A stretch of 47,500 bases of DNA from Isosphaeraceae bacterium (lineage in GTDB: Bacteria > Planctomycetota > Planctomycetia > Isosphaerales > Isosphaeraceae): the NCBI GenBank assembly GCA_025356475.1, contig JANXSX010000173.1, positions 1 to 47,500 on the forward strand, in the 5' to 3' direction. The position numbers and the translations under genes were made by a program. Within the stretch, counting starts at the first letter, position 1; each line of letters opens with the position of its first letter. Under the pieces are notes generated by a model. The model made no database searches, was not told the origin of the DNA, and worked only from the letters and a program-made list of their open reading frames with translations. Positions 16,806 through 42,371 of this stretch are shown piece after piece.

Positions 16806-17699
16806 TCATTTGGTCAGAAACCCTTGGGCCTTGAGCCACTCAGCACAGAGGGCTGGCCAGTGGCTGAACGGTAGCTTGGGCTGATCGTTCTTGATTCCGT
16901 TGCCGAGCCCGAGGCCATGCGCTCCCTTCTCGAAAAGGTGCAACTCGACCGGTACCTTAGCTTTACGAAGTGCTAGCACGAAGAACAAGCTGTTCTCGGC
17001 GGGGACCCCGGAATCCTCGTTTGTATGGGCCAGGAAGGTCGGCGGGGTATCGGCAGTAACCTGGGTCTCGTTCGAGAGACTCTCCAGCAACTTGGGATCG
17101 GGGTTCTCTCCAAGCAGGTTCTTCTTGGAGCCCGAATGCCCGAACGGGGTGGCAATCGCCACGACAGGATAGAGCAAGATCGCACGGTCAGGCCGGCTAC
17201 TGACGCGCTCGATCGGATCTTCGGCCTTCGCATCTCCAGCGTCGTAGTGAGTCGCAGCCGTACTGGCCAGGTGCCCACCGGCGGAGAAGCCCAATACGGC
17301 AATCTTCTTGGGATTGAGGCCCCACTCCACCGATCGTGCCCGCACCGTGCGTATCGCCCGGTTGGCATCGTTGATCATCGCAGGATGATGATACTTGGGG
17401 GCGAGCCGGTACTTGAGAACGAAGGCGGTTACCCCAAGGGTGTTGAGCCACTCGGCAACCTGCTTCCCCTCATGATCCATTGCCAGAAACCCATACCCAC
17501 CACCTGGACAGACAACCACTGAAGCTCCGGTCGACGTATCGGCTGCGGGCTTGTAGATCGTAAGGGTGGGGATATCGACCGCCTCGGTCCCGGTGGCTCC
17601 CGGAGCCCCGCTGGTCCAGAGGGGAAACGTAATCGGTTCGTCGGCCATCGCCAAACTCGACACGAGTGCAAGTGTAAAGAACGGTAAGCTGCGGAGCAT
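16806..17699 (-). CDS. Exported alpha/beta-hydrolase, esterase/acetylxylan-esterase-like
   Basis: The 297-residue product starts at the ATG at 17699 with a clean signal peptide (MLRSLPFFTLALVSSLAMA, cleavage about residue 19). A longer frame to 17840 is rejected since it would place the signal peptide internally. The fold is an alpha/beta-hydrolase of the esterase/lipase type. The oxyanion region is VCPGGGYG (63-70), the nucleophile is S139 in GFSAGGH, and the acid and base are probably D229 (NEDSGVP) and H261 (KGAHG). This closely resembles planctomycete BD-FAE/acetyl-esterase-like enzymes that remove ester groups from polysaccharides, but the substrate cannot be read from sequence. It is monocistronic and divergent from groEL1 over 370 bp. 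Confidence 0.88.
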   Translation of the reverse strand: MLRSLPFFTLALVSSLAMADEPITFPLWTSGAPGATGTEAVDIPTLTIYKPAADTSTGASVVVCPGGGYGFLAMDHEGKQVAEWLNTLGVTAFVLKYRLAPKYHHPAMINDANRAIRTVRARSVEWGLNPKKIAVLGFSAGGHLASTAATHYDAGDAKAEDPIERVSSRPDRAILLYPVVAIATPFGHSGSKKNLLGENPDPKLLESLSNETQVTADTPPTFLAHTNEDSGVPAENSLFFVLALRKAKVPVELHLFEKGAHGLGLGNGIKNDQPKLPFSHWPALCAEWLKAQGFLTK

Positions 17700-17832
17700 G
17701 ATGGATTCTCGCCTTGGAGAGGGTGCGTGATGACCAAGTGGTCGCCGACTTGGCTTAGTGTGGCGGGGCGGCCTCAGGTTGTCAAACCTCTGGAATTCCT
17801 CGTCTGACGAAGTTGTCAGGTTCGGGTGAGAG

Positions 17833-17889
17833 TCTGCCAAAAAGGCAGAGTTAGAAATGAATCCAGTCAGGACCTGGTTTCTCTAACTC
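17833..17889. promoter_or_regulatory. Nested inverted repeats upstream of groEL1
   Basis: A hairpin TCTGCC-AAAAA-GGCAGA (17833-17849) overlaps a longer inverted repeat, GAGTTAGA (17848-17855) with TCTAACTC (17882-17889), whose loop contains CCAG...CTGG. No CIRCE element (TTAGCACTC-N9-GAGTGCTAA) is present, so control of the groE genes is probably not by HrcA. The repeats may be an operator or leader structure; a further 7-bp hairpin (TCGAAGC/GCTTCGA, 18026-18042) sits about 30 bases before the groEL1 start. Confidence 0.35.
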
Positions 17890-18072
17890 CAAGTGAGCCA
17901 AGTCGTAAAGTCTAATTCGACGGATCGGCATTTGAGTTGCATCGCGTGCTTCCCGAGAAGTGAGATCAGGATCGAGTTGACGTGTTGGCTCGCCCCCCTG
18001 GTTCCACTAAGTTTTTGGGTTGCTTTCGAAGCTGGGCTTCGACCGACTTTGTTCTGTCTGGAGATTTCCACC

Positions 18073-19758
18073 GTGGCGAAGATGATGGCCTACGACGACG
18101 AGGCTCGCCAGAAGTTGGCGAGTGGCGTTGGCAAGCTGGCTCGGGCAGTTCGCAGCACGCTTGGCCCCCGCGGGCGCAACGCCGTGATCGATAAGGGTTG
18201 GGGAAGCCCGACCGTGACCAAGGACGGTGTGACCGTTGCCGAGGAGATCGAGCTCTCGGACCCCTACGAGAACATGGGTGCCCAGCTCGTCAAGGAAGCC
18301 GCCTCGAAGACCTCCGACGCCGCAGGCGATGGTACCACCACCGCGACTGTGCTCGCCGAAGCAATCTTCAAAGAGGGCCTCAAGGCTCTCGCCGCAGGCG
18401 CTGATCCGATGAAGCTCAAGCGCGGTATCGATAAGGCGGTTGCCGCCGTTGTCGAGCACGTCAAGAGCCAGTCGAAGAAGATCGAAGGCAAGAAAGAGAT
18501 CGCCGAAGTTGCCGCGATCGCCTCGAATAATGACAAAGTCATCGGCGACAAGCTCGCCGACGCCTTCGAGAAGGTCGGCACCGACGGTGTGATCACCGTC
18601 GAAGAAGGCAAGGGCTTCGAGACCACCGTCGATGTCGTCGAAGGCATGCAGTTCGACCGTGGCTACCTCAGCCCCCACTTCGTCACGGACCAGGATCGTA
18701 TGGAGGTTGTCCTTGAGGACCCCTACATCCTGATCTACGAAGAGAAGATCAGTACCCCCAAGGTTCTGATTCCGCTCCTCGAACTGATCGCTCGTGGCTC
18801 GAAGCCACTGCTGATCATCGCCGAAGACGTCGAGAGCGAAGCCCTGGCGACCTTGGTCGTCAATAAGCTCCGTGGCATTCTCCAGGTTGCCGCCGTCAAG
18901 GCTCCCGGCTATGGCGATCGTCGTAAGGCAATGATGGGCGATATCGCGGTCCTCACCGGTGGCAAGGCCATCTTCAAGGATCTCGGCATCGAGCTCGAAA
19001 GCGTTGCCCTTACCGACCTCGGCCATGCCCGTAAGATCATCATCAGCAGTGAGAACACCACTGTTGTCGAAGGATCGGGCACGCACGAGGACATCAAGGG
19101 TCGCACCGAGCTGATCCGTCGCGAGATCTCCCAGACCGACAGCGAGTATGACCGTGAGAAGCTCCAGGAACGCCTGGCCAAGCTCGCGGGTGGTGTTGCC
19201 CAGATCAACGTCGGCGCTGCTACCGAAACCGAGATGAAAGAGCGCAAGGCTCTTGTCGAGGACGCCCTGCACGCGACCCGCGCCGCAATCGAAGAAGGTG
19301 TTGTTCCGGGCGGCGGTTCCGCCCTGATCCGCGCTGCCAAGGCAATCGACTCGCTCAACCTGACTGGTGACGAAGCCCTCGGGGCCGCCATCATCAAGCG
19401 AGCCGTCGAACAGCCCGCCCGCTCGATCGCCGAGAACGCCGGCATCGACGGCGCTGTGGTCGTCGCCAAGATCCAGAAGTCGACCGACGCCAACTTTGGC
19501 TTCAACGCCGACACCGGCGAGTACGGCGACATGCTCGCTGCCGGGATCGTCGATCCCGCCAAAGTCACTCGCTCAGCCCTCCAGAACGCTGCCTCCGTGG
19601 CAGGCCTTCTCCTCACGACGGAAGCCATCATCGTTGAGAAGAAGGTCAAGAAGCCCGCTGGCGGCGGCGACCACCACGATCATGACCACGGCGGTGGCAT
19701 GGGCGGGATGGGTGGCATGGGAGGAATGGGCGGCATGGGTGGCATGGGGATGATGTGA
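18073..19758 (+). CDS. groEL: Chaperonin GroEL, copy 1, with GGM tail
   Basis: The product is a 561-residue 60-kDa chaperonin, the normal length. It starts at the GTG at 18073 (GGAG about 8 bases upstream), reading [14 protein letters not shown]; the 60 codons before it do not belong to the family. ATP-binding and hydrolysis signatures are intact ([28 protein letters not shown]). The tail is His/Asp-rich and then (GGM)-repeats ending GMGMM, as in folding-competent GroELs. At the substrate-binding site in the apical domain the conserved GYLSPYF reads GYLSPHF (H202, E. coli Tyr203). This is a change in the very patch that binds unfolded protein and GroES. It is the first gene of groEL1-groES-groEL2, the reverse of the usual order. 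The upstream gene is divergent, so the region 17841-18072 should hold the promoter. Confidence 0.97.
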
Positions 19759-29425: not shown

Positions 29426-29606
29426 GCGGGTGTCGTCTCGACGTTGACGGATGTTCGAGGCCCAGCTAGGGTGACAATCGTATTACGAGAATAGCCAACC
29501 TGGGATGACGCGGCAAGTACCTGCGAAATCGGGGCTGAGTCCTGGAGTGGTGTGAGGGCGTTGACTCTCTTCCTTGGCCCTATCTCTACCCTCGATTCAT
29601 ACGGAC

Positions 29607-30698
29607 ATGGAGGCCTGGACGCTGGCAAGCTCTCGATTCACCCAGGCTGCATATCTTCGACTGGTCCGCAACCAAACCCGAGGACCGCTCGCCAGTCTGG
29701 CTCGGTTCGGCTTGAGCCTCGCTTCGGGAGCCTATGCGCTCGGGGTCTCGGGGCGAGATCTGGCGTTCCGGCGCGGCTGGAAGACCACCTTCCCGGCCGG
29801 TATCCCGGTCGTCTCGATCGGCAACATTACTCTAGGTGGAACGGGCAAGACCCCAATGGTCGAGGCGGTCGCTCGCTGGTACCGCCGCCGAGATGTCCGG
29901 GTCGCGATCCTGAGTCGGGGCTACGGGGGCTCGGCTGGCCTAAACGATGAGGGGCGTGTCCTGGAGGAGAATCTCCCGGACGTTCCCCACCTTCAAGGAG
30001 CGGATCGCGTCGCACTCGCGACCACAGCCGTTGAGGAGCTTGAGGCTCAGATCTTAGTCCTCGACGATGGATTCCAGCACCGTCGGCTCCAGCGCGATCT
30101 TGATATCGTGCTGATTGACGCCCTCGACCCCTTTGGCGGTGGCCAACTGTTCCCGCGAGGACTGTTGCGTGAACCCGCCTCGGCGCTCAGGCGTGCGGGG
30201 TTGGTGGTCCTGTCACGCTCCGACCTGGTGACGGCTGAACGTCGTCGCGAGATCCGAGCCGAGGCCGAACGTCGCGCTGGCCCCCTCAACTGGATCGAAG
30301 TCCGCCACGCCCCGCTCGACCTGATGGACGTGCACGGTCGATCCCTCCCGCTGGGCCATCTGGGAGGACGCACGATTGCCGCCTTCTGTGGGATCGGCAA
30401 TCCGGAGGGTTTCCGGCGCACGATCGCCCCCATGGGAACGGTCCTCGAGCTCCGTTCCTATCCCGATCATCACGCCTATTCGGCCTCCGATGTCGCCGAG
30501 CTGGGTCAGTGGATCAAGGCGACCGGTGCCGACCTGGCCTTGACCACTCAGAAGGATTTCGTGAAGCTCCGCGTTGAGCGCCTTGGGGGTGTCCCCCTCT
30601 ACCTGGTGCGGATCGGCCTGCAGATCCTGGATGGTGAGGCCCTCCTCGATCGGGCGCTCTCCAAGCTCTTGCCCTCCACGGGGAAGGAATCGCCGTGA
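29607..30698 (+). CDS. lpxK: Tetraacyldisaccharide 4'-kinase LpxK
   Basis: The 363-residue enzyme from the ATG at 29607 adds the 4'-phosphate to lipid A precursor at the inner membrane. A TTG 33 bases upstream is a less likely start. An N-terminal hydrophobic stretch (about 33-50) is the membrane anchor. The Walker A motif is GNITLGGTGKTP (72-83), followed by LSRGYGG and the LpxK signature LVLDDGFQHRRLQRD. The rest matches the family through YPDHHAYSASD and LTTQKDFVKL. It shows that this organism makes lipid A, in line with a Gram-negative outer membrane. It is first of a nine-gene cluster, overlapping the next start by 4 bases (GTGA). Confidence 0.97.
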   Translation: MEAWTLASSRFTQAAYLRLVRNQTRGPLASLARFGLSLASGAYALGVSGRDLAFRRGWKTTFPAGIPVVSIGNITLGGTGKTPMVEAVARWYRRRDVRVAILSRGYGGSAGLNDEGRVLEENLPDVPHLQGADRVALATTAVEELEAQILVLDDGFQHRRLQRDLDIVLIDALDPFGGGQLFPRGLLREPASALRRAGLVVLSRSDLVTAERRREIRAEAERRAGPLNWIEVRHAPLDLMDVHGRSLPLGHLGGRTIAAFCGIGNPEGFRRTIAPMGTVLELRSYPDHHAYSASDVAELGQWIKATGADLALTTQKDFVKLRVERLGGVPLYLVRIGLQILDGEALLDRALSKLLPSTGKESP

Positions 30699-31684
30699 CC
30701 GAACCCGAGCCTCTCAATCTCGACGATCTGACTTTTGAGCCCCTGGCGACGCGTCCGAGTAAAGTCGTTCTCGACGATCTTGGCCGACCGACCGAGCCAG
30801 GAGTTAGCCTGGAACATTGGCTCGATGCCCTCCCCCAACAACTGGCTGGCAAGGGCTTTCGTCGACTCCGCGATGCCATCGTCACGGCCCGAGCGACAGG
30901 CAAGCCGGTCGCTGCGGCCCTGGGCGGCCACGTGATCAAGACCGGTTGTGGGTCGTACCTGGTCGACTGGGTCAAGCGAGGGGTTCTCAATGGGTTAGCC
31001 CTCAACGGATCGGCGGCAATCCACGATAGCGAACTCGCCATGGCCGGACATACCAGTGAAGATGTCGGAGCAAGGCTCATCGGTGGTCAGTTTGGATTCG
31101 CTCGCGAGACCTCAGAACTCTTCGTCAAAGCCTGTAACCGAGCCGCAGCCGAGGGCTGTGGGTTAGGTAAGGCTTTGGGAATGGAACTCGAAGCCAACGA
31201 TGGGCCGGGAGTCGATTCGAGTGTCTTGGTGGCCGCTCATCGTAAGGGGATACCGTTGACGGTCCATGTGGCGATCGGCACCGACATTGTTCATATGACG
31301 GGCGACCTCGACGGCGCTGCCCTGGGTAAGGCCTGCCTCGACGACTTCCGCAAGTTCACCAACCTGATTGCGACGATGTCCGACGGCGTCTGGCTCAACC
31401 TCGGAAGTGCCGTTGTCATGCCGGAAGTCTTTCTCAAGGCGGTCTCGATTGTCCGGAATCTTGGTAAACCACTCGACCGTTTGACGACGGCGAACCTCGA
31501 CTTCCAGCAGCAATATCGAGGTCTGTTGAACGTGCTCCAGCGTCCAGGTGCGGAAGGGATTGCCCTGACGGGCCATCATGAACTGATGATCCCTCTACTC
31601 CATGCGGCGGTCGTCAATCGCCTGGGCTGGGACCATGTGATCCCTGCGCCTCACGTCCGACCTCGACCGGTGTCAAACTCATGA
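30695..31684 (+). CDS. Deoxyhypusine-synthase-like protein of unknown function in the LPS cluster
   Basis: Starts at the GTG at 30695 (GGAAGG upstream), 329 residues. I do not recognise a named family with certainty. The core pattern of Gly-rich turns (GGHVIKTGCGSYLVDW, then LALNGSAAIHDSELAMAG, then VDSSVLVAAHRKGIPLTVHVAIG) strongly recalls the NAD-binding fold of deoxyhypusine synthase. The lysine-bearing motif of the eukaryotic and archaeal enzyme is not seen. Such bacterial DHS-like proteins have various substrates, and none has been tied to LPS as far as I know. The gene is locked between lpxK and a heptosyltransferase by 4-base overlaps on both sides, so its job is probably coupled to lipid A-core assembly, possibly by making or adding an amino-alkyl group. 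That is a guess. Confidence 0.6.
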   Translation: MTEPEPLNLDDLTFEPLATRPSKVVLDDLGRPTEPGVSLEHWLDALPQQLAGKGFRRLRDAIVTARATGKPVAAALGGHVIKTGCGSYLVDWVKRGVLNGLALNGSAAIHDSELAMAGHTSEDVGARLIGGQFGFARETSELFVKACNRAAAEGCGLGKALGMELEANDGPGVDSSVLVAAHRKGIPLTVHVAIGTDIVHMTGDLDGAALGKACLDDFRKFTNLIATMSDGVWLNLGSAVVMPEVFLKAVSIVRNLGKPLDRLTTANLDFQQQYRGLLNVLQRPGAEGIALTGHHELMIPLLHAAVVNRLGWDHVIPAPHVRPRPVSNS

Positions 31685-32760
31685 ACCTCCTGGTCGTTTG
31701 CCCCAACTTAATCGGCGATACGGTCATGGCCACGCCGACCTTTCGAGCCCTTCGGGCGGGCTTCCCCGAGGCGCGGATCGTCGCGGTGGTCCGGCCCCAG
31801 GTCTCACCTGTACTCGACGGCGGTCCCTGGTTTGACGAGCGGATTCTCTATGATCGCAAGTCGGACAAGCCCGAGTTTCAGACCAAGGCGGTGGTCGCCC
31901 GAGTCTGCGATGAAGCCCCCGACCTCGCGGTCCTTCTGCCCAACTCCTTTCGCTCGGCTCTTCTGGCCTGGCGATCTGGGGCCAAGCGCCGAGTGGGGTA
32001 CGCTCGCGGAGGACGAGGACTCATTCTGACCGATCGGCTTGCCCCTCCGCGCGATCAAGCGGGTCGATATCTGCCGACCCCGATCGTCGAGTACTACCTC
32101 AAACTCGCCCGCCACCTCAACTGCCCGGTCGCGTCGTTACGGACCGAACTCTATACGACCCCCATCGACGAGGCCGCAGCCGACCTGGCGTGGTCTCAGC
32201 TCGGCCTCGGTCATGAGGGGCAACCGGTCGTTTGTTTGAATACGGGTGGGGCGTTCGGTCCTGCCAAGAGTTGGCCGTCCGAGTACTTCGCGACCCTGGC
32301 CAGAAGGCTCGCCGAGGAGCGAGGCGTCGGCGTCCTAGTTCTCTGTGGACCAAGCGAACGCGATCCCGCACGCACGATCGTGGCCCAGGCGGATCACCCC
32401 TCGGTCATCAGTCTGGCGGATCAGGAGCTGAGCATCGGTTTGAGCAAGGCCTGTGTGCGGCGTAGCTCGCTCTTGATCACAACCGATAGCGGCCCACGTC
32501 ACTTTGCGCCCCCATTTGATGTCCCAGTTCTGAGCCTCTTCGGTCCGACCGAGATCGCTTGGACTCGGACCAATCATCCCCTATCGACTCATATCTTTCA
32601 TCCGGTCCCCTGTGGACCCTGTCAAAAACCGATCTGTCCGCTGGGTCACCACCGCTGTATGCGTGACCTGACCCCCGAGAGTGTTTATCCGATCGCCTTA
32701 CGAATGATCAGGTCGCGACACCCGAGCCGAACGGAGACCGTGACATGGCAGGCTGGCTAA
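31681..32760 (+). CDS. Heptosyltransferase-type glycosyltransferase (GT9)
   Basis: The 359-residue protein begins at the ATG at 31681 (ATGA overlap). The opening LLVVCPNLIGDTVMATPTFRALR is the GT9 N-terminal nucleotide-sugar/acceptor motif of WaaC/WaaF. The C-terminal half has VVCLNTGGAFGPAKSWP, the ADP-heptose-binding signature, and ITTDSGPRHFAPPFDVPVLSLFGPT. It ends with a Cys-rich segment (CGPCQKPICPLGHHRCMRDL), common in WaaF-like proteins. It adds heptose or a related sugar to the LPS inner core, on the cytoplasmic side. Which transferase of the family (I or II) cannot be read. Its 3' end overlaps the next gene by 16 bases. Confidence 0.94.
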   Translation: MNLLVVCPNLIGDTVMATPTFRALRAGFPEARIVAVVRPQVSPVLDGGPWFDERILYDRKSDKPEFQTKAVVARVCDEAPDLAVLLPNSFRSALLAWRSGAKRRVGYARGGRGLILTDRLAPPRDQAGRYLPTPIVEYYLKLARHLNCPVASLRTELYTTPIDEAAADLAWSQLGLGHEGQPVVCLNTGGAFGPAKSWPSEYFATLARRLAEERGVGVLVLCGPSERDPARTIVAQADHPSVISLADQELSIGLSKACVRRSSLLITTDSGPRHFAPPFDVPVLSLFGPTEIAWTRTNHPLSTHIFHPVPCGPCQKPICPLGHHRCMRDLTPESVYPIALRMIRSRHPSRTETVTWQAG

Positions 32761-33683
32761 TCACGGGAGGCGGAGGATTTCTTGGGCGGCACGTTCTGGA
32801 CCAAGTTCGGTCCCGTGATGATGTGATTGTGATCGGGCGCCGTGTTCCCCCAGGTTGGCCAGTGGATCGATTCCTCAAGGTAGACCTTGGGGATCCTGAT
32901 ATCGTCCGCGAGGCAGTTCAGAACACTCGACCTCAAGTTGCCCTTCATCTCGCGGGCCGGACCCCCCCTGCCCTTCCGGACGAACTCTATCGCGCGAACG
33001 TGCTAGGCACCCTGCACCTCTTGGATGCCCTCCGAAGCCTTAGATCTACGATTCGCCTGGTTCTGGCGGGCTCTGCGGCGGAACTGGGCCCGGTCGATGA
33101 TTCGGATCTGCCAGTGAGTGAGACTTATGTTCCCAAGCCTGTAAATGCGTATGGTCTGAGTAAGCATCTCGCGAGCGTGGCTGCGCTGGCGACCGATCTG
33201 CCGATCGAGGTTGTTCTCGCCCGCGTTTTCAACCCGATCGGTCCCGGCTTGCCTGACTCGCAAGCCTTCGGGCGGTTCGCGGTCGAACTCTCCAAGCCAC
33301 GGACTTTGAACCGATCCGAGAAGCAATTGCCTCTCACGCTTCGGGTTGGGGACCTTGAGGTCAAACGCGACTTCGTCGATGTCCGAGACGTGGCCAAGGC
33401 TCTCATCATGCTTGCCGAACAGGGGTCGCCTGGGATCTATCACGTCGGGACAGGCCGTTCGCACTTTGTTCGCGAAGGGCTTGATCTCTTGATTCATGAC
33501 AGTCGCCGTCAGGTCCATGTCGAGATCGACCCACGGCTCTACGGTCTTCCAGGGCCAAGGGACTCGCGTGCGGATATCACACGCATCCAATCCGAGATCG
33601 GTTGGTCGCCGAGCTTTGAGTTTGAGCAGTCCATCACAGACCTCTGGAACGAAGTCAGCTTGCGTGACCTTTCGATCCCGTAA
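32745..33683 (+). CDS. NAD-dependent sugar epimerase/dehydratase (extended SDR)
   Basis: The 312-residue protein starts at the ATG at 32745, inside the previous gene. Its Rossmann motif is GGGGFLG (8-14); S110, Y136 and K140 (YGLSK) form the active site of an extended short-chain dehydrogenase. Substrate-loop signature ARVFNPIGPG and DFVDVRDVAKA are typical of GDP-6-deoxy-hexulose reductases/GDP-mannose-dehydratase-like enzymes, so it likely makes a nucleotide sugar for the transferases next to it. The exact sugar is not known. A 7-bp hairpin and an internal promoter follow. Confidence 0.92.
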   Translation: MAGWLITGGGGFLGRHVLDQVRSRDDVIVIGRRVPPGWPVDRFLKVDLGDPDIVREAVQNTRPQVALHLAGRTPPALPDELYRANVLGTLHLLDALRSLRSTIRLVLAGSAAELGPVDDSDLPVSETYVPKPVNAYGLSKHLASVAALATDLPIEVVLARVFNPIGPGLPDSQAFGRFAVELSKPRTLNRSEKQLPLTLRVGDLEVKRDFVDVRDVAKALIMLAEQGSPGIYHVGTGRSHFVREGLDLLIHDSRRQVHVEIDPRLYGLPGPRDSRADITRIQSEIGWSPSFEFEQSITDLWNEVSLRDLSIP

Positions 33684-33737: not shown

Positions 33738-33765
33738 TTGACCGATGTGGGCTCGACCGTATAAT
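33738..33765 (+). promoter_or_regulatory. Near-perfect sigma-70 promoter
   Basis: TTGACC (33738-33743), 16-base spacer, TATAAT (33760-33765). A start about 7 bases later would give a 57-base leader to the glycosyltransferase at 33829. This is the best promoter in the window, and it rules out a translation start at 33745. Confidence 0.75.
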
Positions 33766-33828
33766 CCGGACCAAGGCGAGGGATCGCCACGCGCACGGGT
33801 CCGCATTGTTCTGGCCAGGGAGGGTCGC

Positions 33829-35457
33829 ATGGCGAGCCGCCGACCGTTGGTTGGCCTGGTGTTTCTGGCTGCCTCCCTTCATCTCTTCGGGATGCTTCGC
33901 GAGCCCCTTCCTGCGCAGGACGGCCTGAAGTTCTTCCGGGTCGCCCGGCAGTTTCAGACACTTTCTTGGGCGGAAGCTGTCCGTAAATCGGATCAGCACC
34001 CGCTGTATCCTGCTCTGATCGCCGCGACCGAACCCGTGGTCGCGAGCGTGATCGGTCACGGTCCAAACACGTGGCGGATCAGCGGGCAACTTGTGTCCAT
34101 GCTTGCTGCGCTGGCATTGATGATCCCGTTGCATGGCCTTGCTCGATCACTCTTTGATGACCGCTCAGCGACGTTGGCAGTGTTCCTATTCTTGATCCTG
34201 CCACTCCCATCGGAACTTGGTCATGATACTCTCAGCGACATGACGGCGCTCCTGGCGTTCGTGGTATCTGTTCGGCTGGGAGAGTGTGCCCTCCGCACCA
34301 AGAATGCAAGCGTGGCGATTCGTTGTGGGCTCGCGGCCGGGATCGGTTATCTCGCGAGGCCCGAGGTCGCATTGGTACCGGTCGCTGTCGTTCTTACAGC
34401 GATCACTCGGTGGCGACCATCGTTCGGCTGGGATCGGGTTGCAAGCCTTCGATATGCAGGTCTCTCGGTCGCGCTTCTGGCGACGATCGGTTCTTACGCA
34501 CTGGTCAAAGGCGAGGTTTCCGAGAAGCTGGCCCTTCGGCTCGGTGCGGGACTGAAGGCGAGCGCCCCTGCCAAGCTCGTGAATACGGGGGCTCCCCAAG
34601 GTCTTGACGATCCCAAGTTCAATTTTGCCCCCAAGGAAGAAGACGACGAAGGGCTCACCGCCTCCCCTGGTCTGGCGACCGCAACCTTGTTCTATCGCTG
34701 GGCTGGCACCTTGGGCTTTGTCCTTGTTCCGCTCGCTGTGTACGGTCTGTTTCGTCATCGCATTGGGCGACCCACGGAGATTGGCTCAGGGGGTACTCAC
34801 TCCGTGCATGTCCCCCTTGATTTGCTCGAAAATGACACGGGGTCTGGTGCCCGGTTCATCGGGATCTACATGATTCTGTTTACCCTGATCGTGATTCGTC
34901 ACGCATCGACACTAGGGTATCTCTCGGGTCGACATACATTGCCTCTTGTTGTGCTGACCCTTCCGTGGGTGGCTGCCGGCTATATCGCCTGGACACGTGA
35001 CCTGGCGGCTTCGCGAGGTTGGAACCCTACTGGAGTGCGCAGGCGTCGGGCGATGAGCGCGATGCTGGCGATCGTGATCGGCACCAGTATCCAGATCTAC
35101 AAGCCCGGCCATCCCAGTCGTTGGGGACACCTCGCGGCAGGTCGCTGGCTATCCGCTCAGACAGCCGTCACCGACCCTGTTCTCGACACTCGTGGCTGGG
35201 CTCGATTCGTGGCCGACCGACCGGGATACGACTACTGGCATGTCAAGCAAGCGCTTTCGGATCGGAATCTTGCTTACGTGGTTGTCGGTCGTGACGAGCT
35301 AGAGGCGGAGAGCCCCCGGGCCAAAACCTTACAGGCGATCCTTGCCTACGCCGGTGAGCCTATGGCCGACTTCCCCTCTCGCAAGGGAGGACACGACAAG
35401 TCGGTCTGGATCTATCGCTACCGCGCCCCCGAGAACTGGGAGGGGCTGAGCCTGTGA
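33829..35457 (+). CDS. Multi-pass membrane glycosyltransferase, GT-C/GT39-like
   Basis: The product has 542 residues from the ATG at 33829, with AGGGAGGG just upstream. About ten hydrophobic segments span the first 430 residues (for example VGLVFLAASLHLFG, LAALALMIPLHGL, and LPLVVLTLPWVAAGYIAW), and the last 130 form a soluble domain. The pattern, with an early Asp in the first outer loop (AQDGLKFF) and then HPLYPALIA, resembles ArnT/PMT-type transferases, which move a sugar from a polyprenyl-phosphate donor on the periplasmic side. Confidence in the exact family is moderate as it is divergent. It has its own promoter and overlaps the next gene by 4 bases (GTGA). Confidence 0.8.
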   Translation: MASRRPLVGLVFLAASLHLFGMLREPLPAQDGLKFFRVARQFQTLSWAEAVRKSDQHPLYPALIAATEPVVASVIGHGPNTWRISGQLVSMLAALALMIPLHGLARSLFDDRSATLAVFLFLILPLPSELGHDTLSDMTALLAFVVSVRLGECALRTKNASVAIRCGLAAGIGYLARPEVALVPVAVVLTAITRWRPSFGWDRVASLRYAGLSVALLATIGSYALVKGEVSEKLALRLGAGLKASAPAKLVNTGAPQGLDDPKFNFAPKEEDDEGLTASPGLATATLFYRWAGTLGFVLVPLAVYGLFRHRIGRPTEIGSGGTHSVHVPLDLLENDTGSGARFIGIYMILFTLIVIRHASTLGYLSGRHTLPLVVLTLPWVAAGYIAWTRDLAASRGWNPTGVRRRRAMSAMLAIVIGTSIQIYKPGHPSRWGHLAAGRWLSAQTAVTDPVLDTRGWARFVADRPGYDYWHVKQALSDRNLAYVVVGRDELEAESPRAKTLQAILAYAGEPMADFPSRKGGHDKSVWIYRYRAPENWEGLSL

Positions 35458-36314
35458 GCTTTGGGACCCTCTGGAGCCGAATCCGCCAAGGCACCTCCTG
35501 GACCTGGATCGCCGAGCAGCATCAACCCGCCCTGCCGGTTGACCTGGCGGCGACGGTCATGGACCTTGATGCGACCGACCGACTCCATGCCAAACAAGGG
35601 CGGTCGACGGCCCGTGTTGTGTTTCATGGGCCAGACGGACCGCTCCCCGTTTATCTCAAGCGTCACTACCGGCTGGCTTGGCGCGAGCGGCTCGCCGCCC
35701 TGGTTGACCCGACAGGCAAGCATACGCCGGGGGGTGCCGAATTCGCCCATCTGGCCCGTGCTCGCGAGCTGGGAGTTCGCGTTCCCGAGGTCGTCGCGGC
35801 GGGCGAGCGGATCGGTCCTGGAGGCCTGGTCCAGAGCTTCCTGATGGTCGCGGAACTGACCGGGTGCGAACCGCTCCACGAAGCCATTCCAACCTTGCAG
35901 GCGACGCTCGAACCAACGCAGTTTGCCAAGCTTAAACGGGAGTTGGCCATCGAGATGGCGTCCATTACCGCCACGTTACACGCATCGAAGATGTTTCATA
36001 AAGACCTGTATCTCTGCCACTATTACCTGGACATGAGCTTGACCGAACCGGCCGGTTCGCGGCTTCGCCTGATCGACCTGCACCGGTTGGGCGAGCATCG
36101 CTGGACCGCCTTCAGGTGGCGGCTCAAGGACCTGGGCCAACTGGTTTATTCGACGGTCGGGGTCACTGGAGTCAACCGTCGCGACCTCCTCCGGTTCTGG
36201 CGGCACTATCGCGAGACAATGGGGCTCACTTTCCCGCGTTGGCAGATGTGGCTGGTGGGTCAGAAGGCCGCGCGTTATGTCGATCACAATGAACGTCGCG
36301 GAGGTCGCTCCTGA
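35454..36314 (+). CDS. LPS core kinase, WaaP/KdkA/InaA family
   Basis: A 286-residue kinase-like protein starting at the GTG at 35454 (overlapping the previous stop). The ATP-binding lysine is probably K69 in YLKRHYR, the catalytic loop is FHKDLYLCHYYL (181-192) with D184, and the metal-binding loop is LIDLHRL (206-212). These are the marks of the lipopolysaccharide kinase (Kdo/WaaP) superfamily. It should phosphorylate a sugar of the LPS core, which stabilises the outer membrane through divalent cations. Its position between a GT-C transferase and a GT4 transferase supports this. One-base overlap with the next gene. Confidence 0.93.
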   Translation: MSFGTLWSRIRQGTSWTWIAEQHQPALPVDLAATVMDLDATDRLHAKQGRSTARVVFHGPDGPLPVYLKRHYRLAWRERLAALVDPTGKHTPGGAEFAHLARARELGVRVPEVVAAGERIGPGGLVQSFLMVAELTGCEPLHEAIPTLQATLEPTQFAKLKRELAIEMASITATLHASKMFHKDLYLCHYYLDMSLTEPAGSRLRLIDLHRLGEHRWTAFRWRLKDLGQLVYSTVGVTGVNRRDLLRFWRHYRETMGLTFPRWQMWLVGQKAARYVDHNERRGGRS

Positions 36315-37564
36315 TGCGATTGGCACTGACCTATCAGCGGGTCGATCCTTCCAAAGGCGGGGCGGAGACGTATGTCGCCGACCTCTGCGGGCGTCTGGTT
36401 GCGGCGGGTCACGAGGTCGATCTCTACGCCAGTCAGTGGCGTGAAGGGGTCTTTTCACGTGAGGTTCACACCGTCAAAGTTGAGCCACGCGGTTGGACCA
36501 AGCTCGGTAAGATCTGGAACTTCGCCGTTGATGCCGAAGCTCTCAGACTTGCTGCTGATCACTACGACTGTACGATCGGATTCATCAATACCTGGGGAGA
36601 CGATGTTCTGATCCCACAGGGGGGCGTCCACGCCGCCAGTCGTGAAGCCAACGCACGACGCTTCGCCCCCGGTTGGTCGAGGAATCTGTATACCCTCTCG
36701 AAGCAACTCAATCCCAAACAGCTCTTGCTCTATCGATCGATCGAACGACGCCAATATGACCCAGAGCGTGGGACCAAGATCGTCGCGGTCAGCAAGATGG
36801 TTCAAGGGCATCTCGAACGATTACTCAAGGTCGCTGCCGACCGGGTGCGTGTGATCCCCAACGCGATCGATGCCGATCGGTTGCGGGTCGCTGACCCTGC
36901 CGCGACCCGTCGAGCCTTTCGCTCCGACCACGGTCTCAAGCCCAACGATCTCACGGCCCTGTTCGTCGGTCACAACTTTTGGCTCAAGGGTCTGAAGCCG
37001 CTGCTTCAGTCCCTCAAGCTCCGACGAGATCGCAATCCTGGTGCCCGTCCGATCCATCTCTTGGTGTGCGGAGGGGGGAATCTCGGCCCGTTCCGGCGCA
37101 TGGTTGAGGAACTGGGTCTGGCTTCGGTCGTTAAGCTGATTGGCTTCCAGGCCGATATCCGACCGAGCTTCCACGCCGCCGACTTCTTCGTGTTACCCAC
37201 CTATTATGATCCCTGTTCGCTCGTGGTCTTCGAAGCGCTCGCATGCGGCTTACCCGTGATCACAACCGGGTGCAACGGCGCTGGCGAACTGATCACCCCC
37301 GGCCGACAAGGATATGTGGTCGAGCATCCCGAGATGGTCGATCGGCTGGCGGATGCCCTTGACCAGATGACCGATGATGGAGCCCGTGCGGGAATGGCCC
37401 GAGAGGCCATTTCCTTGGGTCGGGAACAGTCGTTTGACCTGCACGTTTCTCGACTTCTCGACCTCTGTCGTGAGGTCGCAAGTCACAAGACTGGGCGGAC
37501 GCCTCATAGTCGAACCAAGTCTCTCCATTCCGAGCTAAGCCGAGAGAATTCGCACAGAAGCTAA
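36314..37564 (+). CDS. GT4-type glycosyltransferase, WaaG-like
   Basis: 416 residues from the ATG at 36314 (sharing one base with the kinase stop). The GT-B fold is seen as an N-terminal Rossmann half (LALTYQRVDPSKGGAETYV) and a C-terminal donor-binding half with VRVIPNAIDADR, GFQADIRPSFHAADFFVLPTYYDP and the E-x7-E motif (FEALACGLPVITTGCNGAGE). Close to the LPS core glucosyltransferase WaaG in length and in pairing with a WaaP kinase. The C-terminal 25 residues are basic and Ser-rich. It would transfer a sugar from UDP- or GDP-donor to the growing core. Confidence 0.93.
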   Translation: MRLALTYQRVDPSKGGAETYVADLCGRLVAAGHEVDLYASQWREGVFSREVHTVKVEPRGWTKLGKIWNFAVDAEALRLAADHYDCTIGFINTWGDDVLIPQGGVHAASREANARRFAPGWSRNLYTLSKQLNPKQLLLYRSIERRQYDPERGTKIVAVSKMVQGHLERLLKVAADRVRVIPNAIDADRLRVADPAATRRAFRSDHGLKPNDLTALFVGHNFWLKGLKPLLQSLKLRRDRNPGARPIHLLVCGGGNLGPFRRMVEELGLASVVKLIGFQADIRPSFHAADFFVLPTYYDPCSLVVFEALACGLPVITTGCNGAGELITPGRQGYVVEHPEMVDRLADALDQMTDDGARAGMAREAISLGREQSFDLHVSRLLDLCREVASHKTGRTPHSRTKSLHSELSRENSHRS

Positions 37565-37597: not shown

Positions 37598-38356
37598 ATG
37601 CAAGCGATCGTGCTCGCTGGTGGTAAAGGGACGCGGCTCCGCCCGTTCACTGCGGTCTTCCCCAAGCCGCTGATGCCGCTGGGTGACGCCGATCCGATGC
37701 CGATCATGGAAGTCGTCCTCCGTCAACTCTCCCGGTTCGGCTTTAAGGATGTTACGGTGATCACCGGCTACCTTACCGAACTGATCGAGGCCTTCTTCGG
37801 CGACGGCAAGAAGTTCGGGACCTGCGTGGATTACCGACGCGAGCTCACTCCGCTCGGGACCGCAGGCGGCCTCACCCTCTTGCCACGCCCGAAGGAGCCG
37901 GTCCTGGTGATCAACGGTGATATCTTGACCACGCTCGACTTCGCTGCAATGTATGAGTTCCATTGTCGCCGAGGTGCGGCTGCCACCATCGCTTCGTACC
38001 CTCGCGAGGTTCGTATCGACTTTGGCGTCCTTGATTTTGGGGATGATCCGCATATCCTCACAGGGTATCGCGAGAAGCCTGAGTTCTCATTTCAGGTGAG
38101 CATGGGTATCTATATCCTCAGCCCTTCAGCTTGGGATTATTTGACTCCTGGTCAAGCGATGCCGATGCCCGACCTGCTGGAGACGATGCGTGGCGACGGC
38201 TTGCCGGTCCACTGCTTCAAGCAGAACTGTTACTGGCTTGACATCGGTCGACATGATGATTATGCCACGGCTAACGAGATTTTCGAGTCGCGCCGGGGAT
38301 CGTTCCTTGGTATCGAGACTGAACGTACCAAGGTCAAGGTGGGACGCGACCAGTGA
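37598..38356 (+). CDS. Sugar-phosphate nucleotidyltransferase
   Basis: 252 residues, starting at the ATG at 37598 with GGAGG 7 bases upstream. The signature AGGKGTRLRPFT (7-18) with FPKPLMPLGD is the nucleotide/sugar-1-phosphate binding loop, and INGDILTTLD (105-114) holds the metal-binding Asp. The family includes mannose-1-phosphate guanylyltransferases, HddC and RfbA/GalF; the length matches the short form without the left-handed beta-helix. It should make an NDP-sugar donor for the transferases next to it. The base or sugar cannot be read. It overlaps the plsY gene by 4 bases. Confidence 0.94.
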   Translation: MQAIVLAGGKGTRLRPFTAVFPKPLMPLGDADPMPIMEVVLRQLSRFGFKDVTVITGYLTELIEAFFGDGKKFGTCVDYRRELTPLGTAGGLTLLPRPKEPVLVINGDILTTLDFAAMYEFHCRRGAAATIASYPREVRIDFGVLDFGDDPHILTGYREKPEFSFQVSMGIYILSPSAWDYLTPGQAMPMPDLLETMRGDGLPVHCFKQNCYWLDIGRHDDYATANEIFESRRGSFLGIETERTKVKVGRDQ

Positions 38357-40023
38357 TTGCGACCATCCTCTCCCTACTCGCGGTAGTCCTCGCGTACCTG
38401 ATCGGGGCGATCCCGTTCGGCCTGTTGATCGCTCGTGCGGTAAGTGGGATCGACATTCGCACTGTGGGTTCGGGCAACATTGGGGCGACCAATGTCGGTC
38501 GGACCTTGGGCCTGCGCTGGTTCGCTGTGGTCTTCGTATTCGACTTCGCCAAGGGGTATTTACCGACGATCTTCCTGCCTCGATTGCTGAATACCGTCGG
38601 TTACCCCGGCCCACCCTGGTTGGCGGTTGTGATCGCGCTGGCTGCGATCGTCGGTCATAATTTCCCTGTCTACTTGGGGTTCAAAGGGGGAAAGGGAGTC
38701 GCCACGAGCCTTGGGTCGGTCTTCGCCCTCGAACCCATTGCGGGGATGGCGGCAGTTTGTGGTTTCGTCTTCTTCTTGTTGATCACCAAGTTCGTCTCGA
38801 TGTCATCCATTCTAGCGGCCATCGTGTTCGCATTTGTCTACTTCAAACAGTACCCAACACCTTGGGATTCCACACACGGACCGATGAGTGTTGCGACCAT
38901 TGCCCTGCTCGTGATGATGGTCGTTAGACACCGCGCGAATCTTGCCCGCATCGCAGCGGGAACTGAAAATAAGGTCCAGTTCCGAAGGAATCGTGCGCCA
39001 AAAGGCAGTGTTCATATTCGTCTTCTGCTCATCCTGACCCTTCTCGCCACGGTTCTCTTTACGACCCTATGGTCGATGACAAGGCGTGCTGAGGTCGTGG
39101 TTGGCTCGTATCGCTTCCATGAAGTAACACGGGCCGCGACCGGTCACCAACGGGCCGATCGGCTTGCGTTCGCCCAGCACGGAAAGATTCTGGCGGTCAA
39201 CTGCCCTCGGTACAACCGAGTCGTGCTCTACGACGTCACCAAAGCGGGTTGGCTCAATAAGCGGCACGACTTAGGGCTTGAAGGGCGGCCAGTAGCACTC
39301 CTGGCGACAAGTGAGCATTTGCTCGTGCTTCAACGGCCAACGCTCGACCATCGACACCTTGGTCCAGGTTGGTTCGATACATTTGACTTCGACGGTAATC
39401 TCGCGAGGCCCCGCCGATACGTGGGCTATGACCCCGACGATTTTGCGACCCTACCTGGTGAACGACGACTCGTGGTTCTGCACTCCGGGAAGGCGGAAGG
39501 CGAGTCGAATCGCCCTTCCCCCGATCTGACAGTCCTGGACCTCGACACACCCAGTTCGATCGATGAATGCCCACGCGTCGTCTTCGATAAGCCTGGCGAT
39601 GATCCCGAACGGATCCGACTGGCAGCCGACGGTCGATCGGCAGTTGTGACGTTCCGCTACCTGAATGAAGTTGCCAAGCTCGACCTTTCCGACCTCGCCT
39701 CGCCCCGAACCGTTGAGCGGGTGCCCTATAACGATCTCATACCACTTGCTGAGAACCCCGAGCGCGAGACCGTGGCACTCGCGCCTGGGATCGTTCTGCA
39801 AACATTACCTGATGGGTCAGCCCTTCGGGTCTACGGCGAGGCCGATGGAGTGGTCCCCTTGTTCGGGCCGCTCAAGCTCAGCAATGTCCGACCCAACGGC
39901 ATGGCGGTCAGTACTGAGCGAGGTTTGATCGCGGTCGCGAGCAAGGCGGGCAGCGTTCATTTGATCGTGGCCGCCCCGGTCGAGCCCGCCGTCGCGGTTG
40001 TGGAAGGATCAAGTTTCAAGTAG
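38353..40023 (+). CDS. plsY: PlsY glycerol-3-phosphate acyltransferase fused to a C-terminal propeller-like domain
   Basis: A 556-residue protein from the GTG at 38353 (overlapping the previous stop). Residues 1-210 are a complete PlsY, with five to six membrane segments and the three catalytic motifs: GSGNIGATN (39-47), GHNFPVYLGFKGGKGVATS (101-119), and NLARIAAGTENKV (196-208). It uses acyl-phosphate to acylate glycerol-3-phosphate. A normal PlsY of about 200 residues would stop here. Instead a sixth or seventh membrane helix (222-240, RLLLILTLLATVLFTTLW) leads to about 310 residues of short beta-rich repeats (LAFAQHGKILAVN, RLVVLHSGKAEG, IRLAADGRSAVVTFRY, MAVSTERGLIAVASK) that resemble a YncE/WD-like beta-propeller on the outer side of the membrane. 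I see no stop or frameshift at the junction. The function of the extra domain is unknown. The last 67 bases overlap the 3' end of the convergent hydrolase gene. Confidence 0.92.
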   Translation: MIATILSLLAVVLAYLIGAIPFGLLIARAVSGIDIRTVGSGNIGATNVGRTLGLRWFAVVFVFDFAKGYLPTIFLPRLLNTVGYPGPPWLAVVIALAAIVGHNFPVYLGFKGGKGVATSLGSVFALEPIAGMAAVCGFVFFLLITKFVSMSSILAAIVFAFVYFKQYPTPWDSTHGPMSVATIALLVMMVVRHRANLARIAAGTENKVQFRRNRAPKGSVHIRLLLILTLLATVLFTTLWSMTRRAEVVVGSYRFHEVTRAATGHQRADRLAFAQHGKILAVNCPRYNRVVLYDVTKAGWLNKRHDLGLEGRPVALLATSEHLLVLQRPTLDHRHLGPGWFDTFDFDGNLARPRRYVGYDPDDFATLPGERRLVVLHSGKAEGESNRPSPDLTVLDLDTPSSIDECPRVVFDKPGDDPERIRLAADGRSAVVTFRYLNEVAKLDLSDLASPRTVERVPYNDLIPLAENPERETVALAPGIVLQTLPDGSALRVYGEADGVVPLFGPLKLSNVRPNGMAVSTERGLIAVASKAGSVHLIVAAPVEPAVAVVEGSSFK

Positions 40024-41633
40024 CGGATGTTGCGAAACTCGGTGCCGTTGCCATGATTCTGCAGCCCGAAGTAACCTTTGAGCGGGGGCGTTCGCAAGGT
40101 CGGATACTGGTCGAGCATCGTATCCATGACCTGCTCCCCGTTCGACCAGACTTCGACCCGAAGGCCACGGCAACGGATCGTCCACTTGTTCCACTGGCCT
40201 GCGGGGTGGGTCGGGTTGGCGCTCGGCGCGGCATGGCGATAAAGCGAGCCGCTATGGTACTTGCTGACCCTGCCCGGATCGTCGGACGACTGCAACTCGA
40301 GGCCGGTTCGTGATGGCCAGTCGAGCCCTCGGGTCGGAACAACCATCGAGTTGGCGAAGGTTGGCGGTAGGAACCAATCGACTGGCTTCGAGCGGAGGAA
40401 GACCCCCGAGTTCCCTCCCTTCGAGACACGCCACTCCAGGGTCAGGATGAAGTCGTCGAGTTCGATCGGTGCGCGAAGCCACCCATATTCATCAGGTCCG
40501 GGTTTACATGCGATCACCCCTTGCGACCACGTCCAGGTCGAGGGTCGTTGTGACATCTCGGCAACCCAGCCGGCAATCCCATTCTCAGCCGGATTGACGA
40601 AGCGTCCGTCGACCTTGGGCTCGGCTTCAGGCGCGTGGCCAAGTGGGGTTGGGCCTTGCGAATTCAGGCTCTTGTCGATCGCCTCGTGGGCCATATCCCA
40701 CTCCAACAACGTGCAACCTTTTCCGATCCCATGGAACAAGTTATCGAAATAACCTCCCTCGTGACCGAACAACTTGTACAAGGGCTTGGCGGTATCACGA
40801 ATCACATCAATACCCGAGACATCCCAGGATGTGCCGCGATCACCGACCAGGTGCCAGATCGTGCGAGGAGTCGAAAGAGCAAATAGGACTTCGGCATCAT
40901 AAGACTTGAGCATCGTCTTGATCCAGGGCGCGGCTTCGTCTTCTTTGAGAGCCCCACTTGCCAGAAGATCGGCAAATCTGGGGGACCCACTGATCACTGC
41001 GCCCCCTTTGATATCGGCGTTGAGAGCCATGAGCCAAGTCGCCCGGGTCGCGCCTTGATCGATCCCCACAACCGCGATCCGATCGGGATCCACATGAGGC
41101 AACCCTCGCAGGAGCCGAAGCGCAGTCTCATCGCGAGCGATCAGTTCGCCAAGCCGGGGTCGTCGACCTGGCAACGTAGGTTTCCAGAGATTCGGATCCG
41201 CAGGCTGGGCAACCCGCACGACCACATAGCCACGAAGCGCCAGTGACAGGGCGGTCGGCTTGCCGTCAGGTCCAGGCTTGGACATATCGAGCTTCAAAAC
41301 AGGCAAGCCATCTTCAAGCAGCAGGACTGCGGGCCACTTCTTGCTTGGGTCGAAGCCCTTTGGCAAGACTTCCACCGCCCGTACTGTATTGGTTTCGGAG
41401 TTGAGCAGGAGTTCCACCTGGGCACATCCCCCTTCAAGAGGCTGGGCGTCAGGCTCTTCAGGCCTTGCGTCGACCTTGGGGTTCGGTAGCTCCAGGAGCT
41501 TGCGAAGGTCCTCCCGGATCTCGACCCGGCGCTGCTCCCATTCCGCCTTAGTTTTGGGCTGTTGGAAGCCATCGGCATGGACGAATGAGGTCAGGATGCC
41601 GACGAAAAGCAGGGATACGAAGGCGCGGAAGGC
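39957..41633 (-). CDS. Exported alpha/beta-hydrolase-like protein fused to a DUF1080 (3-keto-disaccharide hydrolase-type) domain
   Basis: 558 residues from the ATG at 41633 (GAGGA 8 bases upstream). A further in-frame ATG lies at 41666, while the frame up to 41951 has no support. A signal peptide (AFVSLLFVGILTSFVHA) comes first. Residues about 70-330 have the alpha/beta-hydrolase layout with a 'nucleophile elbow' VVGIDQGATRA, where Asp193 takes the place of serine, and a likely histidine H292 (GHEGGYF). From about 350 to 545 is a DUF1080 domain (3keto-disac_hyd) ending RNIRYLKL, with WRVSKGGNSGVFLRSK and GLELQSSDD. The domain often sits in exported planctomycete enzymes acting on sugars. It is divergent from the DUF2007 gene. 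Confidence 0.9.
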   Translation of the reverse strand, partial: AFRAFVSLLFVGILTSFVHADGFQQPKTKAEWEQRRVEIREDLRKLLELPNPKVDARPEEPDAQPLEGGCAQVELLLNSETNTVRAVEVLPKGFDPSKKWPAVLLLEDGLPVLKLDMSKPGPDGKPTALSLALRGYVVVRVAQPADPNLWKPTLPGRRPRLGELIARDETALRLLRGLPHVDPDRIAVVGIDQGATRATWLMALNADIKGGAVISGSPRFADLLASGALKEDEAAPWIKTMLKSYDAEVLFALSTPRTIWHLVGDRGTSWDVSGIDVIRDTAKPLYKLFGHEGGYFDNLFHGIGKGCTLLEWDMAHEAIDKSLNSQGPTPLGHAPEAEPKVDGRFVNPAENGIAGWVAEMSQRPSTWTWSQGVIACKPGPDEYGWLRAPIELDDFILTLEWRVSKGGNSGVFLRSKPVDWFLPPTFANSMVVPTRGLDWPSRTGLELQSSDDPGRVSKYHSGSLYRHAAPSANPTHPAGQWNKWTIRCRGLRVEVWSNGEQVMDTMLDQYPTLRTPPLKGYFGLQNHGNGTEFRNIRYLKLDPSTTATAGSTGAATIK

Positions 41634-41774
41634 CATGGACAAAGTCCTCGCCAATGAGTGTGTCATGTCGTAGTGACTTGAGGTTACGACCGATGTTAAC
41701 GGACAAGTCGCGACTCTGCCAGGGCCACAGTTGGCTTCCCTTCGGTTGCAAGCAGGGTTATTCTCAAGGGTATG

Positions 41775-42371
41775 ATGCCGATCAATCCAATAAGCGACCC
41801 GCCACGATTCTGCACCCGATGCGTGCAATCGCGTCCGTCCACCGACCGTGATCTCTGTTTCCGGTGCGGCGAGACTCTGGTGAACCAGGGCTATTGTCAG
41901 GTCTGTGCCCAGTATTGGTTGCTTGCTCAAGGGATCCCCTGCCCTAAGCATGAGCTTCCACTCGAGTCACCGCCGCAAGTCTTGGGTCCTGACTCGGAGC
42001 ACTCCAGCACCTGGGTGACTGTGAAAACATATAGCCATCCCTTTGAGGCTGAGGCCTCGCGTCTTCGCCTCGAAGCGGAAGGAATCCCGACCTTTCTTGA
42101 TGGGTCGCGGATGGGGACGAACACCCTCTACCATGTGGCGACCGGCGGGATCAAACTTCAAGTTCCGACACTGTTAGTCGATGACGCGCGGGTACTGCTG
42201 GCTCAGTCGTGGTCGATGCCCCCGGTCGATGACCTCGACGACGCCTGGGAGGATCTCGGCGCGGCACCGGGAGATATCTTCACTTATGTTGCATTTCGAA
42301 TCGCCGTGGTACCAATCCTGCTAGGTTTGGTCCTCATAGCGATCTTTGGATATATCGCAACATCCCGATAG
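41775..42371 (+). CDS. DUF2007 protein with N-terminal zinc ribbon and C-terminal membrane segment
   Basis: 198 residues from the ATG at 41775; an ATG three bases earlier is too near the AAGGG ribosome site. The N-terminal 60 residues hold three CxxC pairs (C13/C16, C28/C31, C41/C44) plus CPKH, a zinc-ribbon-like module. Residues about 75-140 are a DUF2007 domain (YSHPFEAEASRLRLEAEGIP... LQVPTLLVDDARVLL), a putative signal-transduction unit of unknown ligand. The C-terminus has one hydrophobic segment (FRIAVVPILLGLVLIAIFGYI). The order zinc ribbon, DUF2007 and membrane anchor suggests a cytoplasmic sensor at the membrane. It converges on the metallopeptidase with a 21-bp gap. Confidence 0.87.
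   Translation: MPINPISDPPRFCTRCVQSRPSTDRDLCFRCGETLVNQGYCQVCAQYWLLAQGIPCPKHELPLESPPQVLGPDSEHSSTWVTVKTYSHPFEAEASRLRLEAEGIPTFLDGSRMGTNTLYHVATGGIKLQVPTLLVDDARVLLAQSWSMPPVDDLDDAWEDLGAAPGDIFTYVAFRIAVVPILLGLVLIAIFGYIATSR

Follow-up and report, generated by a model that had tools for sequence, protein, structure and literature searches.

A PlsY acyltransferase fused to a predicted periplasmic beta-propeller closes an LPS-core operon in Isosphaeraceae

Introduction

In many bacteria phospholipid synthesis depends on the acyltransferase PlsY, whose step is both committed and essential. The enzyme usually consists of about 200 residues in a seven-helix membrane fold with nothing attached, and its third conserved motif (motif 3) is cytoplasmic. 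Planctomycetes, in which the present example was found, have unusual envelopes. In the PlsY of Aquifex aeolicus the ligands are contacted by Ser35, Thr41, Arg45, His92, Lys104, Ser142, His177 and Asn180 (PMC5700162).

The gene described here lies in a 47,500-nucleotide stretch of an Isosphaeraceae genome (the window), at the end of a cluster of genes for the lipopolysaccharide (LPS) core, and encodes a PlsY that continues into a second part. The initial annotation knew of no described PlsY-propeller protein, and a search of the open literature by title or abstract, which reached few subscription journals or preprints, likewise found neither this fusion nor the PlsY-DUF4149 fusion reported below.

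Results

The fusion gene and its PlsY domain

The gene is a single open frame of 556 codons at 38353..40023 (+), without internal stop. It begins with GTG inside the end of the preceding sugar nucleotidyltransferase (NTP-transferase) gene (37598-38356), overlapping the stop of that gene. At the other end, 67 bases are shared with a convergent frame, 39957-41951 (-). The frame is divided as follows.

38353..38967, + strand: PlsY acyltransferase domain, aa 1-205 (PF02660, TIGR00023 and 5xj5 match; all ligand residues kept)
38968..39009, + strand: basic cytoplasmic linker, aa 206-219 (alignment, with length varying in relatives; pLDDT ~45; charge)
39010..39081, + strand: extra transmembrane helix (TM8, or helix 8), aa 220-243 (helix in model; hydropathy)
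39085..39987, + strand: predicted beta-propeller, probably periplasmic, aa ~245-545 (AlphaFold2 model; WD40-type folds; dN/dS)
39988..40023, + strand: disordered C-terminal tail and stop (last ten residues with pLDDT below 50)

The convergent frame presumably encodes a DUF1080-type protein, and relatives of it lie downstream in L070, L074 and L076. Further along, the product of frame 41772-42371 (+) is small and has two zinc-ribbon-like motifs rich in cysteine; proteins of this type occur downstream of the fusion in several loci of the family (L033, L037, L038, L072, L073 and L077).

PF02660 matches residues 13-200 (E 1.2e-48; 165.7 bits, cut-off 24.1), the PlsY equivalog model TIGR00023 scores 170.7 bits (cut-off 137.2), and A. 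aeolicus PlsY (5xj5) matches the same domain at E 7.7e-35. The ligand-contacting residues of the A. aeolicus enzyme correspond to S40, T46, R50, H102, K114, S152, H193 and N196, a mapping taken from the alignment that allows for a one-residue offset of the deposited 5xj5 chain. These eight residues are invariant in 20 of 20 aligned fused proteins, and the PlsY part is therefore very probably active. The description of this part as a complete PlsY with its catalytic motifs is upheld by both family models and by the eight retained residues. No second protein of the host genome (99.98% complete) matches PF02660, and the partner enzyme PlsX is also encoded there (PF02504, E 6.5e-97, at G000:C138).

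Neither PF02660 nor PF02504 found a match in nine nearly complete genomes of families f5, f7, f3 and f11 (G028, G033, G037, G043, G053, G060, G067, G049 and G081), and these planctomycetes presumably begin phospholipid synthesis with another acyltransferase.

An eighth helix and the likely side of the propeller

The full-length model (pLDDT 79.9, pTM 0.60) has PlsY-type helices, moderately confident overall and weak at 30-50, a weak linker, a helix at 220-243 and then the propeller. Both the model and the hydropathy of the segment (2.16 in the window protein, mean 2.36 over relatives) bear out the extra membrane helix that had been proposed after PlsY. The segment is strongly hydrophobic in all scanned relatives except L087, where the scan chose a PlsY helix. 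The linker between PlsY and helix 8 varies in length among relatives.

The 25 residues that lead into helix 8 have a mean net charge of +4.0, and the 15 that follow it one of +0.9, a bias that is reversed in one separate-gene homologue, that of G004. A published structure and accessibility data place motif 3 of PlsY on the cytoplasmic side. Because the chain would cross the membrane an eighth time after motif 3, and given the charge bias, the propeller is probably periplasmic.

The C-terminal domain is predicted to be a WD40-type propeller

Residues 242-556 were modelled together with ten relatives. The resulting model is all-beta (pLDDT 86.6, pTM 0.86), and the domain is confidently predicted to be a beta-propeller of the WD40 type. 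The best structural matches among those listed are WD40-type propellers, namely RACK1/Asc1, Tup1, G-beta and a bacterial WD40 domain, with Z scores of about 24 up to 24.8 over 236-264 residues at ~7-14% identity. The 24 strands follow in a repeating order that would correspond, by strand order, to six full four-stranded blades with an N-terminal strand closing the last. The matched WD40 structures have seven blades and relatives carry extra residues near blade 5, so six is a provisional count. The initial annotation had seen a propeller-like domain here, and the prediction of a folded one agrees. Its extra helix and propeller are both predicted, with limits that had to be corrected to 220-243 for the helix and about 245 for the propeller start.

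At the sequence level, no Pfam family scores over cut-off on the propeller of the window protein, which thus has no WD40 repeats recognisable at the curated Pfam cut-off, and phmmer found no match to it among PDB sequences. In a profile search the nearest solved chain was 1l0q, from a surface-layer protein, with E 3.5e-9 across 36 residues, followed by weaker matches to other extracytoplasmic propellers, Lp49, hydrazine synthase and YncE. The choice_anch_I model is matched by 11 of 24 members (best E 8.8e-12), and scores 16.4 bits against a cut-off of 300 on the window domain.

Conservation

Fused relatives are 557-625 aa long and share 34-50% identity with it in the aligned set. Mean conservation is 0.66 for PlsY, 0.57 for the propeller and 0.39 for helix 8. 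In close pairs of relatives, dN/dS is 0.06-0.30 for the propeller, comparable with 0.10-0.32 for PlsY. The two faces of the propeller differ: with faces deduced from strand order and WD40 topology, 19 of 83 residues on the face formed by the strand B-C and D-A loops are conserved in at least 90% of sequences, against 3 of 56 on the other (Fisher p 0.008). Conserved polar residues on or beside the conserved face include Q266, R267, R286, Y287, D332, H335, E382 and D416.

The LPS-core operon

The genes upstream of the fusion are these.

29574..30698, + strand: LpxK (lipid A 4'-kinase), start of the cluster (PF02606, E 8.8e-72)
30695..31684, + strand: conserved protein (same place in L036 and L037, 71-74% identity)
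31681..32760, + strand: heptosyltransferase-type GT9 (PF01075, E 5.9e-26)
32745..33683, + strand: NAD-dependent sugar epimerase/dehydratase (PF01370, E 1.5e-34)
33745..35457, + strand: PMT_2-type glycosyltransferase (PF13231, E 1.2e-9)
35454..36314, + strand: Kdo/WaaP-type LPS kinase (PF06293, E 8.5e-21)
36314..37564, + strand: GT4 glycosyltransferase (PF00534, E 1.1e-26)
37598..38356, + strand: sugar nucleotidyltransferase, its stop overlapping the plsY start (PF00483, E 6.3e-35)

The order PMT, WaaP, GT4, nucleotidyltransferase, PlsY, propeller recurs in the family loci of sufficient length, the displaced propeller gene of G004 being the exception. In those loci of the family that were checked, the nucleotidyltransferase gene lies immediately before plsY, at 64-82% identity. 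The placing of the gene as the last of an LPS-core cluster holds. Two loci from another family (L097 and L100) likewise have GT4 and the kinase ahead of plsY, so the linkage of plsY to LPS-core genes appears older than the fusion.

Distribution of the fusion

A continuous fusion was found in 35 of the 45 Isosphaeraceae genomes; Singulisphaera acidiphila DSM 18658 and Singulisphaera sp. GP187 are among the carriers. In one further genome, G002, it is clipped by a contig end yet continuous across the join. The frame is broken in two genomes, by a frameshift inside PlsY in G047 and by a frame change at the join in G171. Four have separate PlsY and propeller genes, adjacent in G010, G022 and G164 and about 14 kb apart in G004, and three were uninformative (a contig-end fragment only in G094 and G131, neither part in G005). 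The separate genes were located as follows.

L033:2932-4819: PlsY and propeller
L034:1514-3411: PlsY and propeller
L032:2006-3265 and 17457-18104: PlsY and propeller

In all three loci the separate propeller gene encodes an N-terminal membrane helix of its own. At L073:5286-7104 the PlsY and propeller frames part in an AAG-rich linker, perhaps by frameshift, assembly error or slippage.

The initial annotation had put PlsY, helix and propeller in one chain, and had raised a frameshift or assembly error near 39000 as the danger to that claim. The one-chain description stands, and such an error is ruled out by the identical continuous architecture in the 35 genomes. More generally, an artefact (frameshift, read-through or misassembly) that joins two genes could draw on the metagenome-derived relatives in which the parts lie in different frames, but it is already refuted by a join common to so many genomes, those of the two Singulisphaera among them, and its likelihood is negligible.

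A restriction of the domain to planctomycetes had been proposed as a point to check; its range is narrower still, a single family in the samples of class and phylum. Among roughly 350 further genomes from the class, a profile of the domain matched none strongly (the best hit, a short one, had E 4.4e-8). A phylum-wide sample of 392 genomes gave no match outside Isosphaeraceae at E 1e-6, and plasmids gave none. Among other long PlsY frames in the phylum, seven of the eight fetched were ordinary PlsY with a spurious open frame upstream, the eighth (L119) falling outside the search pattern.

History of the fusion

Trees were built from PlsY only and from a concatenation of PlsY, the propeller and three operon genes, the latter rooted with PlsY of other families; its outgroup rows are mostly incomplete. 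The base of the family, which PlsY by itself did not resolve, was moderately resolved in the concatenated tree: the remaining members together form the sister group of a genus with separate genes (G022 and G004; support 87/98), and G010, also split, groups with the fused G011 (100/99). On the simplest reading, given moderate support at the root, this suggests that the two genes were adjacent at first, fused once and later split once. G010 and G171 are metagenome assemblies, and the breaks there could be errors.

A second extended PlsY

In family f3 of the same class, which we guess may be Gemmataceae, PlsY is followed by a hydrophobic C-terminal domain (loci L096-L104, e.g., L096:2924-4180). 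These frames are 401-455 aa long from a motif-based start, and PF13664 (DUF4149) scores over cut-off in five of the seven scanned, below cut-off in one and without a match in one. As this extension is separate from the propeller, an extended PlsY arose at least twice in the class. Two unrelated C-terminal fusions suggest that the PlsY C-terminus has repeatedly been used as an attachment point.

Discussion

The explanation we favour is that the propeller is a tether with a docking face, which places phospholipid synthesis at LPS-core assembly or couples the two. PlsY would form lysophosphatidic acid on the cytoplasmic side of the inner membrane, and the chain would recross the membrane through helix 8 and hold the WD40-type propeller in the periplasm. 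There the propeller would serve as a docking platform on a tether. The loops of its conserved face would bind a partner in the periplasm or envelope, or else a ligand of the LPS-core system, and the committed phospholipid step would thereby be kept where the LPS core is assembled and in pace with that assembly. We put the probability of this function, taken jointly with the fusion being the working PlsY of the cell, at about 0.5.

The initial annotation had thought of a sensor of envelope state that tunes phospholipid synthesis, or of a domain that recruits a partner to the acyltransferase. In the sensor, a ligand bound in the periplasm would act on PlsY via helix 8 and thereby adjust phospholipid to LPS. 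The conserved polar face, the control of the committed step by a single PlsY and the LPS-core operon would all suit such a device, but a signal would have to pass through a linker that varies in length and is predicted with low confidence, and through TM8, the least conserved part of the protein, and four genomes have a separate propeller gene. For these reasons we consider the sensor doubtful. A poorly conserved linker and helix beside one significantly more conserved face point instead to a tether with a docking face, and a partner-bringing or independent function fits better than a mechanically coupled sensor. A broader form of the idea makes the propeller the receptor of a signal from the LPS core or the envelope. 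It would control or position PlsY accordingly and be a direct device for balancing the two syntheses, phospholipid and LPS, at the committed step. We judge this improbable; we know of no direct control of phospholipid against LPS of this kind in the group.

The variable linker and poorly conserved helix are also what would be seen if the propeller performed an envelope task independent of PlsY, such as one in LPS-core or outer-membrane assembly, and had been joined to PlsY through neighbouring genes without a functional link, PlsY giving it an anchor and a fixed stoichiometry. A gene of its own, downstream of plsY, probably encoded the propeller before the fusion, and unfused forms survive, in one case about 14 kb away; covalent linkage is thus dispensable, a point that also counts against the docking reading. 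Set against this is the retention of the fusion across most genera sampled, with its operon position unchanged, and we regard an unconnected job as possible, if on the unlikely side. That the propeller is an enzyme, a lactonase-like or other hydrolase or lyase acting on an envelope sugar or lipid, is very unlikely. Invariant Q, R, H and E residues do lie on one face, and Pfam Lactonase matches four of 24 members weakly (best E 5e-4), but the window domain matches no model above a curated cut-off and no known catalytic set was recognised in the propeller.

A family-wide PlsY with a propeller, ending an LPS-core operon, offers a handle on how phospholipid and LPS are matched in planctomycetes, and one that is testable, since Singulisphaera acidiphila DSM 18658 is a cultured carrier.

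Comparison with known systems

The extracytoplasmic propellers (YVTN 1l0q, YncE and choice-of-anchor I) are nearest to the fusion propeller by sequence profile, with matches that cover a short stretch; to our knowledge none of this kind is tied to a lipid enzyme. With WD40-type propellers such as RACK1/Asc1, Tup1 and the Thermomonospora curvata WD40 domain 5yzv it shares the overall fold, but unlike them it is membrane-anchored, probably periplasmic, and assigned six full blades rather than seven. The PlsY-DUF4149 proteins of family f3 are likewise PlsY extended at the C-terminus, the added part being the hydrophobic DUF4149 and not a propeller. Compared with known PlsY (TIGR00023, PF02660; 5xj5), the fusion has the same complete domain and substrate-contacting residues, with PlsY-type membrane helices predicted at moderate confidence, but where known PlsY ends shortly after motif 3 it continues for about 350 residues more, which are predicted to include an eighth helix and a propeller.
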